Assembly: GCF_002154335.2 (NCBI RefSeq)
Contig: NZ_MTPX02000051.1
Location: 1-64,000 of the forward strand
Source of the DNA: Actinomyces ruminis
GTDB taxonomy: Bacteria; Actinomycetota; Actinomycetes; Actinomycetales; Actinomycetaceae
Reading direction: 5' to 3'
DNA length: 64,000 bases
Positions 13,376-48,469 of the stretch are shown here, piece by piece. Both the position numbers and the translations under genes were made by a program. Position 1 is the first letter of the stretch; every line of letters begins with the position of its first letter. The notes beneath the pieces were generated by a model that searched no databases, had not been told where the DNA came from, and was given only the letters and a program-made list of their open reading frames with translations.

Positions 13376-13446
13376 GAGCCGCCGTGGGTCTGAGCCCGGG
13401 TCGTATCTCACGTACGCGTTTGCGTCTAACGCACGCGTTGGTCTCT

Positions 13447-13509
13447 CACGTACGAGTTTTGGAGATTTGCGGGTGCCTGGCGCGGGGAAAGCTCCAAAAC
13501 GCGTACGTG
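13447..13509. repeat. ACGAGTTTTGGAG palindromic element, copy A
   Basis: Left arm CACGTACGAGTTTTGGAG (13447-13464) pairs with the right arm at 13492-13509 in 17 of 18 positions, with a 27-base loop. Flanking sequence from about 13420 to 13535 repeats TCACGTACG/CGTACGTG motifs, giving an outer layer of inverted repeats. It occupies the 338-base gap between the exporter and nagB, which otherwise holds no gene I can support. It may act as a terminator in both directions. Confidence 0.75.
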
Positions 13510-13713
13510 TGGCGGGAAGCCGTACGTGTGGCGGAGACTCGGACGAGCCTCGCGCCGGCATCGTGCGTTGTGCTCCAACATCAAGGGCCCGCCTCCCGGA
13601 GCCCCGCCCCGCCAGGCCGTAGCATGGCCCTGCGACGCGGGCGCGCTGCCCGCCGACCTCACGGACGAGGTCGCTAGGTCCGCCGCCGGAAGCAAAACCT
13701 TAAGGAACCAACC

Positions 13714-44982: not shown

Positions 44983-46553
44983 ATGAGTGACGACACTGCC
45001 AAGGCTTCCGCCTTCACCCCGCCCGCCCCCGGATCCTCGCCGATCCGCGTCCGTTTCTGCCCCTCGCCCACGGGTACGCCGCACGTAGCATGGTGCGCAC
45101 CTGCCTGTTCAACTGGGCGTATGCGCGGCACACCGGCGGCACCTTCGTGCTGCGCATCGAGGACACCGACGCCGCCCGCGACTCCGAGGAGTCCTTCGAG
45201 GCGATCCTCGACTCGCTGCGCTGGCTCGGCCTGGACTGGGACGAGGGTGTGGCCAAGGGCGGCCCCCACGCCCCCTACCGTCAGTCCCAGCGCACCGAGC
45301 TGTACCGGCAGGTCGCCGACGAGCTGCTCCAGGCCGGCTACCTGTACGAGTCCTACTCCACCCCCACCGAGATTGAGGCGCGCCATCGTGCCAAGGGTGA
45401 GGATCCCAAGCTCGGCTACGACGGCTACGACCGCGACCTGACCGAGGAGCAGAAGGCCGCCTTCCGCGCCGAGGGCCGCCAGCCGGTGCTGCGCATGCGC
45501 ATGCCGGACGAGGACATCAGCTTCAACGACCTGGTGCGCGGCCCGGTCACCTTCAAGGCCGGCTCCGTGCCCGACTACGTGGTGGTGCGCGCCGGCGGTG
45601 ACCCGCTCTACACGCTTGTCAACCCCGTCGATGACGCCGCCATGGGCATCACCCACGTACTGCGCGGGGAGGACCTGCTGTCCTCCACGCCCCGGCAGGT
45701 GGTCCTGTACCGCGCCTGATGGCGATCGGGCGCGCGCAGCGGGTGCCCGAGTTCGCCCACCTGCCCTACGTGATGGGGAGGGGAACAAGAAGCTGTCCAA
45801 GCGTGACCCCGAGTCGAATCTGCTCATCCACCGCTTCCGGGGCATGGCGCCGGAGGGACTGCTGAACTACTTGGCTCTGCTGGGTTGGTCCCTGTCCAAG
45901 GACGAGGACGTGTTCACCCCCGACCAGTTGGTGGCCGCTTTTGACATCCGCGACGTCAATCCCAACCCGGCCCGTTTCGACCCCAAGAAGTGCGAGGCCA
46001 TCAACGCCGAGCATCTGCGCCGGCTGGAGATCGACGACTTCCGCGACCGGCTGGTGCCCTACCTGGCGGACGTGTACCCCGACCCTGCCGACCCGGACTG
46101 GACGGCCCGGCCCTTGGTGAGCGCCACCGCCTTCGCCGAGTTGACGCAGCGCGAGCAGGAGATCCTCACTGCCGCGGCCCCGCTGATCCAGACCCGCATC
46201 CAGCTGCTGCGAGAGTCCCGCGACATGCTCGGCTTCCTACTGGTTGACGATGCCGATCTGGAGCTCGAGGAGCGGGCCGTGTCGCGCCTGAAGGATTCCG
46301 CCCCGCAGGTGCTGGACACGGCTATTGCCGCGCTCGAGGCGCTGCCCGGTCCGTGGTGTACTCAGGTGCTGGAGGAGACACTGCGCGCGGCGATTGTCGA
46401 CGGCATGGGGATCAAGCCGCGTCTGGCCTTCGGGCCGCTGCGCGTGGCCGTCACCGGCCGGCAGGTCTCCCCGCCGCTGTTTGAGTCCATGGAGATTCTG
46501 GGGGCCGACTCCTCCTGGCGCGTCTGCGCGCGCTGCGCGCCCGCCTGGGCTGA
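44983..46553 (+). CDS. gltX: Glutamyl-tRNA synthetase; four frameshifts
   Basis: Class I synthetase of 524 residues after repair, charging tRNA-Glu. The HIGH region is [12 protein letters not shown], the KMSKS counterpart [26 protein letters not shown] and the helical anticodon-binding end follow. One base is missing near 45091 (GTAGCATGG for GTAGGCATGG), 45717 (GCCTGATG for GCCCTGATG), 45775 (one G in a G run) and 46516 (TCCTCCTGG for TCCTCCCTGG). The true stop is the TGA at 46551-46553. It is essential, with its own tRNA-Glu genes 1.7 kb downstream. Confidence 0.93.
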
Positions 46554-46573
46554 GACGGGGCGGAGCCGACACT

Positions 46574-46670
46574 TACACGAGTTCTCGGCATTGACACGAG
46601 TTTTGGAGGTATGCGGCCGCTGCGCACACGCAAACCTCCAAAACTCGTGTACACGACGTGAACGCGTGTA
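46574..46670. repeat. ACGAGTTTTGGAG palindromic element, copy B
   Basis: Inner arms of 17 bases pair perfectly (46594-46610 with 46634-46650, ACACGAGTTTTGGAGGT). Outer arms TACACGAGTTC (46574-46584) and 46660-46670 pair in 10 of 11. It starts 21 bases after the gltX stop and could serve as its terminator. The left half (46574-46610) is repeated in the same orientation at 47869-47905 with two mismatches. Confidence 0.85.
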
Positions 46671-46682
46671 CTTGTAGGTTGC

Positions 46683-47768
46683 TCAATCCCACAGTCCCCG
46701 GCGCCGTCGGGCATTGGCGGTGATGGCGGGCGGGAACATACTTAGGACGTCCTGACAGAGCCGGGCCGCGTCACGCAGATGCTCGGCGGTGAAGCGCTTG
46801 AAGGTCCAACCGGATGACTCCTGGATGAGATCCTGCCGAACCTTCTCATCCCAGGTCGTGCCTGTAACCGCGTACTTGTCGCGGCCGTCGTACTCCGCGG
46901 CGATTCGCAGTGCGGGCCAGGCCAGGTCGAGGAAGAAGTGGCGACCCTGGCTGGGAATGTCGACCCGCTGCTGTAGCACCGCGGAGGGCAGCCCGAGGGC
47001 CTCGACCTGCCAGCGCACCACGCTTTCACCTGGGGACTCCGAGAAGGGACTGGCGATCCGGGCCACCGCCCGCGCGCGGACGGCGCCCTTCCGCCCGGCC
47101 TGTTCCTCCACCGCCTGCAGAAACCTGACGCGAACCTCCTGCCAGCGCTGCTGCGATCCAGTGAAGTCACGACGATCCGGACGGACCAGAGCGCGCATGG
47201 CCGAGTCGACGATGGTGATGGACTGGCAGGCCGGCAGATCGAAGGCACAGTCGACCGCGGTGCGCATGAGGTCGGTCACCACGATGCCCTGGATCATCAC
47301 CAGTTGCTCGTTCGGGATCGATAGTCGTCGTTTGTGCAGGCACACCGCTCGCCCGCCCGTGCTCTCCGTCGCTAGACGAGGAGTTCTTCCGCGGCGGAAC
47401 TCAACCGCAGGCAGGACAATGGTGGGCGCCGACGGGCGTTTGGGAACGGCGGTCCAAACATCTGGTTCGGCATCGCGAACCCATAGACCGTGCAACAGTG
47501 CGGCGGACTCATGGGTCAGAGCAGTGGCGGATCGCCGCGTCTCCCATGCGCCTCGACAACGCACCAGGCTGACCTCGCGCTTTTGCCGCCACACTTCAGC
47601 GGCTTCTGAGGGGTGGTAGTACACGCCACGCATGGGGCGGACGAGTTCGGGGCGGTGTGACAGATGTGGCAGGTTGCTTACCGCCGACAGGATGACCGGC
47701 GGAAGCGACGGCGGGGTCGGATAGGCATCCATGGGGCGATCCTGTGCTTCGGCCTCATTCAGCGCCAT
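46683..47768 (-). CDS. AbiEi-like / DUF559 (Vsr-like nuclease fold) protein
   Basis: Protein of 361 residues from the ATG at 47766-47768; the frame is open further upstream to 47873, but that ATG lies inside the repeat. The N-terminal half resembles the AbiEi antitoxin family: GVYYHPSEAAEVWRQKRE, ALTHESAALLHGLWV and GIVVTDLMRTAVDCAF with RxxVD-like spacing. The C-terminal half has a DUF559/Vsr-like nuclease core, FFLDLAWPALRIAAEYDG, then KVRQDLIQESSGWTFKRFTAE. Such proteins are frequent, often multicopy, in actinobacteria and of unproven function. It sits between two copies of a palindromic repeat. An ATG at 47732 is an alternative start. Confidence 0.65.
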   Translation of the reverse strand: MALNEAEAQDRPMDAYPTPPSLPPVILSAVSNLPHLSHRPELVRPMRGVYYHPSEAAEVWRQKREVSLVRCRGAWETRRSATALTHESAALLHGLWVRDAEPDVWTAVPKRPSAPTIVLPAVEFRRGRTPRLATESTGGRAVCLHKRRLSIPNEQLVMIQGIVVTDLMRTAVDCAFDLPACQSITIVDSAMRALVRPDRRDFTGSQQRWQEVRVRFLQAVEEQAGRKGAVRARAVARIASPFSESPGESVVRWQVEALGLPSAVLQQRVDIPSQGRHFFLDLAWPALRIAAEYDGRDKYAVTGTTWDEKVRQDLIQESSGWTFKRFTAEHLRDAARLCQDVLSMFPPAITANARRRRGLWD

Positions 47769-47865
47769 CGGGCACGTTGAGTCCTGTGGATTGGGGGTGC
47801 ACGAACCGCACCTGTGGACCCCGGTGAAGAGGGCGGCGGCCGACCGATGCTCCGTCCTACGGCCG

Positions 47866-47968
47866 ACATACACGAGTTCTCGGCAGTGACACGAGTTTTA
47901 GAGGTTTCCACGTGCACAGCGCCTGCAAACCTCTAAAACTCGTGCTCCTGAGCCAAACTCGTGTATGT
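47866..47968. repeat. ACGAGTTTTGGAG palindromic element, copy C
   Basis: Inner arms CACGAGTTTTAGAGGTTT (47890-47907) and 47927-47944 pair perfectly over 18 bases. Outer arms ACATACACGAGTT (47866-47878) and 47956-47968 pair perfectly over 13. Compensatory change is visible: where copy B has GGAGG/CCTCC, this copy has AGAGG/CCTCT, so pairing is preserved. Confidence 0.85.
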
Positions 47969-48058
47969 GCTGGCTGTGGCTGCCCGCGGCGCCGGTGAAC
48001 AGGTCGGGATCGGGGCATGCATGTGCGCTGGGTGTGGCTGCACTCACGGCGATCTGAC

Positions 48059-48087
48059 TTGGCGTTGGCGGGGAGGCCGTGTAAATT
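48059..48087 (+). promoter_or_regulatory. Promoter of the tRNA-Gln/Glu cluster
   Basis: TTGGCG (48059-48064) and TAAATT (48082-48087) are spaced by 17 bases, and the mature tRNA-Gln begins 46 bases after the -10 box. It is the only AT-rich hexamer pair in the preceding region. Confidence 0.5.
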
Positions 48088-48132
48088 ACCGATCGCTGCC
48101 CGGGCGTTAGCCGCGCGGGTGCACCAATCTCT

Positions 48133-48204
48133 TGGGGTATGGTGTAATTGGCAACACAGGTGATTCTGGTTCATCCATTCTAGGTTCGAGTCCTGGTACC
48201 CCAG
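48133..48204 (+). tRNA. tRNA-Gln (anticodon CUG)
   Basis: TGGGGTA pairs with TACCCCA. The anticodon stem GGTGA/TCATC holds TTCTGGT, giving CTG. T-loop TTCGAGT; discriminator G; no encoded CCA. Confidence 0.95.
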
Positions 48205-48287
48205 CCGAGTGCTGATAGCCGCAAACCGGTCCATCGTCATTGGTGGGCGGAGTACGGCCTCGGCGCCTCGAACAAGTCCATATTCGA

Positions 48288-48360
48288 GCCCCGTTCGTCT
48301 AGCGGCCCAGGACACCGCCCTCTCACGGCGGCAGCACCGGTTCAAATCCGGTACGGGGTA
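48288..48360 (+). tRNA. tRNA-Glu (anticodon CUC), copy 1
   Basis: GCCCCGT pairs with ACGGGGT. The anticodon stem CCGCC/GGCGG encloses a loop with CTC. T-arm CCGG-TTCAAAT-CCGG. CCA is not encoded. It is identical over 73 bases to copy 2, 106 bases downstream. Confidence 0.95.
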
Positions 48361-48393
48361 CGAGCCACGGTTCCTCAAGGAGCCAGTCGGCAG

Positions 48394-48469
48394 GCCCCGT
48401 TCGTCTAGCGGCCCAGGACACCGCCCTCTCACGGCGGCAGCACCGGTTCAAATCCGGTACGGGGTACCA
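48394..48469 (+). tRNA. tRNA-Glu (anticodon CUC), copy 2
   Basis: Same sequence as copy 1, with CCA encoded at 48467-48469. The spacer between the copies (48361-48393) is unrelated to the region before copy 1, so only the tRNA body is duplicated. Confidence 0.95.

Follow-up and report, generated by a model that had tools for sequence, protein, structure and literature searches.

AbiEi-like, Vsr-type nuclease genes of Actinomyces are bracketed by private, dispersed palindromes: a possible counterpart of REP/RAYT systems

We find that a nuclease gene of Actinomyces ruminis and its relatives in Actinomyces are associated with flanking palindromes, that the palindrome types are private to like proteins yet built on a common plan, and that the same palindromes are dispersed as solo copies; such units sit at different loci in different lineages, and a paralogue's palindrome-gene-palindrome unit is found collapsed to a solo palindrome. 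On balance we favour, with modest confidence, the view that gene and palindromes make up one cognate system analogous to the REPtron. The window analysed here is a 64,000-nt stretch (positions 1 to 64,000 of contig NZ_MTPX02000051.1) of a draft genome, 82.6% complete in 99 contigs and labelled G000; G010 is A. glycerinitolerans, G041 A. succiniciruminis and G028 A. ruminicola, and comparisons across species use one genome per species. The features of the window are as follows.

13416 to 13540, no strand: a solo palindrome belonging to the same superfamily (GTACGCG variant); missing at the A. ruminicola orthologous site
44983 to 46553, plus strand: gltX, left neighbour, frameshifted in the assembly
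46569 to 46684, no strand: palindromic element a (type 1), on the gene's downstream side, directly after gltX; 110.9 bits by covariance model R1, of which it is a source copy
46683 to 47732, minus strand: AbiEi-like / Vsr-homing-type nuclease gene, 349 aa from a conserved, likely ATG
47864 to 47979, no strand: palindromic element b (type 1), on the gene's upstream side; 112.7 bits by R1, also a source copy
48133 to 48469, plus strand: tRNA-Gln, tRNA-Glu and tRNA-Glu, right neighbours

The first-pass annotation had described a 37-base direct repeat with two mismatches that encloses exactly one gene, and direct reading of the letters bears this out: 46574-46610 and 47869-47905 run in the same direction and agree at 35 of 37 bases, and the only gene-sized ORF between them is 46683-47732, with gltX before and tRNA-Gln/Glu/Glu after the unit. 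These repeats are one arm each of the ~110-nt palindromes a and b, whose palindromic nature had gone unmentioned, as had the third element at 13416-13540. Each copy is a palindrome in its own right, with 50-nt arms that are 80% and 78% complementary, and the wider pair (46571-46681 and 47866-47976) is 73% identical. The core ACACGAGTTTT, with one mismatch allowed, occurs seven times in the window, always within a or b, against a shuffle mean of 0.10; both elements fold far better than shuffles on both strands (z -6.55 to -10.04), and changes that compensate on both sides are found at 11 of 18 pairs across 28 palindromes. The open frame of the nuclease gene reaches on to a GTG at 47873, within element b. 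The gene is intact, and the adjoining gltX is split by frameshifts (two pieces, with 2 TGA in one), which are probably draft-assembly errors. The suggestion that the repeats might be passive terminators does not survive, as no intrinsic terminator (GC-rich stem, short loop, T run) is found in 46400-48300 and one palindrome copy lies upstream of the gene. In Rfam the palindromes reach no family's gathering score, with sub-threshold microRNA matches only.

Actinobacterial genomes commonly encode proteins that carry the annotation 'AbiEi antitoxin' or 'DUF559 domain', and we know of no role assigned to them. The closest relatives of the window gene belong to Actinomyces of the rumen type, with 91% identity in A. 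glycerinitolerans, 89% in A. succiniciruminis and 79% in A. ruminicola, followed by eight further relatives at 28-33%. Matches of the window protein itself to Pfam-type profiles are sub-threshold; among the 12 alignment members, Pfam recognises AbiEi_4 in three, MTES_1575 in three, DUF559 in one and AbiEi_1 in one, and no transposase family at E ≤ 0.01. PADLOC AbiEi profiles match all 12 at E ≤ 0.1, the window protein weakly (E 0.0018). In the predicted structure (mean pLDDT 79.9, pTM 0.82), the C-terminal fold, approximately residues 231-338, is closest to the homing endonuclease I-Bth0305I (PDB 3r3p; Z 11.7, rmsd 2.4 Å over 95 residues) and also near Vsr (1cw0; Z 9.6), while the N-terminal half matches AbiEi (6y8q) with Z 8.4, but at an rmsd of 6.8 Å over 152 residues, and Rv2827c (1zel) with Z 5.7. 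Foldseek alone gives no match with E < 0.2 (3r3p only at E 0.79), and the PDB holds no sequence relative at E ≤ 1. Residues D269, E280 and K286 are invariant in all 12 sequences, and we read them as putative catalytic residues. Profiles and predicted structure thus support the domain assignment made at first pass, more tentatively for the AbiEi-type fold, and favour a model in which an AbiEi-like half is joined to a Vsr/homing-type nuclease half. With dN/dS of 0.155-0.200 against its four orthologues, and 0.155-0.243 over the ten pairs of the five, the gene is kept by purifying selection and is not decaying.

Bracketing extends across the family, for which 74 Actinomyces loci were used (72 of the 74 matches at E ≤ 1e-50 and two weaker paralogues from the window genome). 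With a limit of 450 nt, 43 of these genes have palindromes on both sides and 64 have one on one side or both, as scored by an ungapped detection that misses the A. ruminicola pair, which the covariance model does find; near family genes there are 115 palindromes in 65.7 kb, versus 11 in the 130.3 kb beyond 600 nt. Control gltX loci have palindromes on both sides in 1 of 29 cases and on at least one side in 15, a count that omits one short locus (L150) of 30 and retains L127, L129 and L130, the gltX loci that carry the window unit or its A. ruminicola form. These control hairpins are mostly short-loop, GC-rich and just downstream of gltX, unlike the family palindromes. In genome G047, where the family search gives no match at E ≤ 1e-50, the gltX locus (L144) has a strong 63-nt palindrome of different sequence 63 nt past gltX on its downstream side.

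The same picture emerges when palindromes are disregarded and the two flanks of a locus are simply compared with each other (score ≥ 50). Matching flanks are present at 56 of the 72 family loci long enough to compare (two of the 74 have short flanks) and absent at 16, versus 19 of 400 cross-locus pairs, 0 of 68 distal pairs and 0 of 26 gltX loci once L127, L129, L130 and L150 are removed. Relatives in other genera, for which there was no control of their own, have matching flanks in seven of eight cases, the eighth offering only 120 nt upstream. The first-pass annotation had held that repeats lying equally beside many ordinary genes would speak against its cassette; they do lie beside ordinary genes, with at least 33 places in the genome, but the comparison does not settle the matter, because repeats that match across the two flanks characterise the family in a protein-specific way.

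Palindrome type follows the protein. Among the 54 family loci with an extractable element, types are shared by all 33 pairs of proteins with at least 85% identity, by 17 of 21 pairs at 70-85% and by 1 of 1377 pairs below 70%. Common descent explains much of this tracking, and the informative part is that unlike proteins almost never share types. The four non-sharing pairs at 70-85% are those between the gene of genome G012 and the four window-clade genes, where gene and palindromes have changed together. Palindromes of unlike genes have no evident common sequence, yet they follow a common plan: in a non-redundant set of 35 palindromes, which includes two of type 2, self-match within the arms peaks at lags of 19 and 20 (z 4.5 and 6.2; the next highest of lags 8-30 has z 2.4). 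For 26 of the 35 the best lag is one of these two and for nine it is another, so that an approximately 10-bp motif is repeated within each arm in most of them.

The palindromes are also dispersed through the genomes. Covariance model R1, built from 11 type-1 copies, gives at least 65 strand matches at E ≤ 0.1 in the window genome, counted as at least 33 places. R1 scored 150 of 1118 first-look candidates in G000 and, under stricter filters, 75 per genome in the search of 49 genomes; because candidates were scored only in part, these place counts are lower bounds, and zeros hold at that sensitivity. At E ≤ 1e-5, type 1 is present in 7 of 49 Actinomyces genomes, namely G000, G010, G041, G028, G012, G024 and, weakly, G034, which include all five with an orthologue; G024 and G034 have type-1 palindromes and no copy of the gene. 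Type 2 (GAGCTTTTG...) is found in eight of 49 genomes (7-40 arm matches in seven, one isolated match in G002), type 3 (ACTGCGTTCTCC...) in 11, and type 4 (CGYGGTTTTG...) in two (nine places in G007, one isolated match in G044), with 0 matches to each reversed-pattern control for types 2, 3 and 4. All four types searched are thus dispersed in genomes carrying the cognate gene, and among the matches listed there are also genomes that have the palindromes without it: G000, G024, G025 and G041 for type 2, and G018, G023, G030, G035 and G039 for type 3.

A full place list exists for 12 combinations of genome and type, and in all 12 a close pair of palindromes encloses the cognate gene. The query patterns were taken from gene-flanking copies, so bracketing at the seed loci is by construction and the 12 cases are not independent; the orthologues elsewhere are partly so. 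Leaving aside the type-1 places of G010, G041 and G028, 18 close pairs (≤ 1.7 kb) are counted, 12 around family genes and six not, with ~0.54 expected by chance in G000 alone. By a GC3 heuristic, 12 of 14 solo places in G000 overlap no likely coding frame, and the solo copies lie in convergent, tandem and divergent gaps alike. In the left flank of one G000 locus (L049, contig C20), a solo CACGACC-type palindrome adjoins, by eye, a solo type-1 palindrome.

Four genomes have the unit between gltX and tRNA-Gln, and the fifth, G012, has it after pepP. The gltX-tRNA interval of G024, G025, G034 and G012 contains no such gene and, by model R1, no palindrome, in keeping with the first impression that the unit is inserted there. 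In G012 the orthologue (74%) and its two palindromes follow pepP at 1.08 Mb, with gltX at 0.04 Mb. The sister genome G038 has 20 nt at this pepP site instead of the ~1,549 nt of G012, between flanks that are 92-93% identical; the edges of the G012 unit are not exact. Genome searches of G038 find neither gene nor palindromes, and a palindrome scan of its pepP site is likewise negative. In a gltX tree of 32 genomes, G012 joins G038 and stands away from the remaining carriers (100/100 for both clades), so the gene and type-1-like palindromes are carried by two separate lineages. Two paralogue groups keep one locus across several species. Of the solo palindromes, that at 13416 is absent in A. ruminicola between flanks 88-90% identical, and this one clean solo empty site shows no target-site duplication; the solo copy at C33:109785 is common to the window genome and A. 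ruminicola.

Close relatives G010 and G041 (gltX dS 0.045) differ at three loci by having palindrome-X-palindrome in one and a single palindrome in the other, with matching outer flanks. X is either the type-2 nuclease gene, a paralogue, or one of two unrelated ORFs that look membrane-protein-like to us and have no Pfam match (L213, 1462-2538; L217, 1429-2196), each enclosed by type-2 palindromes in G010, with a solo palindrome in its place in G041. The type-2 gene is also at that locus in G028 and G034, and the L213 ORF is also present in G000, so both differences are losses in G041. No gain was caught, and the two known directions are those losses. Type-2 pairs elsewhere enclose a RAMA-domain, restriction-methylase-associated ORF (L214, 1437-2510, in G034) and an IS1634-family transposase (L216, 1867-3447, in G024); of the ORFs fetched from between type-2 pairs, none but the known gene matches the family profile. 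Since type-2 pairs bracket unrelated genes, bracketing alone is no proof of partnership, and two of these genes differ between genomes just as the nuclease gene does, solo palindrome in one and bracketed gene in the other, so the losses need nothing beyond ordinary recombination between repeats. The proposal that the unit is a mobile or excisable cassette is borne out in part: the different locus in G012, the empty site in its sister and the paralogue unit reduced to a solo palindrome in a sister species speak for it, but the known directions are of loss only.

In A. ruminicola the gene lies in the opposite orientation between the same neighbours. Its dS is 0.70-0.77 against the window-clade genes, where gltX and pepP give 0.27-0.33 in comparable pairs, and 0.64 against the G012 gene, close to the 0.585 and 0.48 of gltX and pepP (G038 gltX rows, a wrong-strand artefact, are omitted). 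Against the window clade the nuclease-gene dS is more than twice that of gltX and pepP; a separate arrival in the same gap is therefore as likely as a simple inversion at the palindromes, which we do not claim. This gene, unlike gltX and pepP, is about equally close in dS to the G012 and window genes, which makes horizontal transfer possible. By eye, similar-looking lipoprotein-type ORFs stand either side of A. ruminicola gltX (L028, 2976-3785 and 7319-8131), the second between the nuclease unit and the tRNAs.

Other explanations were weighed against this body of evidence. It is unlikely, in our judgement, that the protein is simply an autoregulated DNA-binding protein whose AbiEi-like half uses the upstream palindrome as an operator to repress its own promoter, with the dispersed copies as regulon or decoys and nothing moved. 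AbiEi and Rv2827c do autoregulate through 23-bp inverted repeats upstream of their own genes (excerpts of PMC7319586), and the upstream palindrome lies ~150 nt before the likely start codon; yet a matching repeat stands downstream of the gene too at 56 of 72 loci, solo copies in G000 are not consistently at promoters by the GC3 heuristic, and the invariant nuclease residues are left unexplained. Homing, in which the nuclease cuts solo palindromes and repair copies the gene in to give palindrome-gene-palindrome, would suit a protein whose best structural match is a homing endonuclease domain, and there are solo and bracketed alleles whose outer flanks match. We consider it quite improbable, given that the solo state is derived wherever the direction is known, that unrelated genes show both states too, and that no palindrome waits at the gltX-tRNA interval of G024, G025, G034 and G012 (model R1) or at the G038 pepP site (palindrome scan).

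Were the palindromes independent miniature elements moved by another transposase, with family genes merely residing in palindrome-rich gaps, then solo palindromes away from family genes and type-2 pairs around unrelated genes would follow naturally, but the protein-specific types and the matching flanks at 56 of 72 family genes and seven of eight relatives in other genera would not, and we regard this as very improbable. Least credible to us is the one-gene phage-defence cassette with passive flanking repeats proposed at first pass, to which we give scant weight even though PADLOC AbiEi profiles (E ≤ 0.1) match every one of the 12 members: an AbiEii-type partner gene is missing from the gltX-tRNA interval, two paralogue groups keep to one locus across several species, and dispersed cognate palindromes have no place in it.

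For the cognate system that we favour, a mechanism can be proposed. By analogy with AbiEi and Rv2827c, the AbiEi-like half would bind the ~10-bp motif, of which a palindrome typically contains four copies, two in each arm at a spacing of 19-20 bp, and the Vsr/homing-type half may nick or cut the palindromic DNA. Repair or replication of the cut palindrome would then copy it to new intergenic sites, such that the bracketed gene would be the source copy and solo palindromes its miniature, gene-less offspring, while recombination between palindromes would delete the DNA that lies between them. The system might then be an independently arisen actinobacterial counterpart of REP/RAYT, made of AbiEi-Vsr nucleases that are each specific for their own four-site palindrome and that, by nicking or cutting, spread palindromes and thereby build and rearrange intergenic space; we put this forward tentatively, as a plausible reading short of a probable one.

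The pairing with private palindromes gives proteins annotated as AbiEi or DUF559 a concrete candidate substrate, and it explains repeated DNA in Actinomyces genomes that could otherwise be mistaken for terminators. If the nuclease does spread palindromes, it would represent a second, non-homologous solution to the presumed role of RAYTs, and the dozens of natural protein-palindrome pairs would serve directly as tests of specificity. Among the papers listed in a search of open-licence PMC literature, none couples the AbiEi/DUF559/Vsr protein family to palindromic repeats, and the partnership of this nuclease family with repeat spreading looks unrecognised so far.

Several known systems resemble parts of this one. 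According to excerpts of PMC7319586, the promoters of AbiEi and Rv2827c contain 23-bp inverted repeats that each protein binds, and these type IV antitoxins share with our family a tentative N-terminal structural match, the AbiEi profile matches and inverted repeats at the gene; the Actinomyces gene differs in having no toxin partner (there is no adjacent AbiEii nucleotidyltransferase toxin in the gltX-tRNA interval, where gltX and tRNA genes adjoin the unit), in its fused nuclease half, and in repeats that lie on both sides and are dispersed. I-Bth0305I (3r3p) and Vsr (1cw0) share the Vsr-like catalytic fold of the C-terminal part, whereas the Actinomyces gene is intergenic and palindrome-bracketed. 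TIRYT/TIRtron elements, described in excerpts of PMC3733652 as RAYT-like genes flanked by repeated terminal inverted repeats, are alike in that the flanking repeats also form a dispersed family, and differ, as described there, in encoding a tyrosine transposase and in having flanks described as terminal inverted repeats.

The closest parallel is the REPtron, in which, in the excerpted accounts, an HUH transposase gene (TnpA_REP/RAYT) has REPs at its borders, with further copies dispersed (PMC8266576, PMC3116915, PMC3733652; see also PMC2817692). Those accounts give REPs of 20-40 nt, GTAG-tagged and in more than 100 copies, whereas type-1 palindromes are ~105-110 nt with an internal motif repeat at 19-20 bp, and Actinomyces palindromes occupy 9-33 places per genome in the counted cases, with 33 as a lower bound. 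The REPtron enzyme is described as an HUH tyrosine transposase, that of Actinomyces being an unrelated AbiEi-like plus Vsr/homing-type nuclease, and neither the consensus of 11 nor that of 28 type-1-like copies carries a GTAG or CGTC end tag. With no HUH transposase and no such tag in type-1 repeats, membership is rejected; because the enzyme is unrelated and the repeats lack GTAG, it is the analogy that stands, in a palindrome-bordered gene, dispersed extragenic palindromes, a palindrome type and protein that change together and, in the Actinomyces cases looked at, one gene copy per type.
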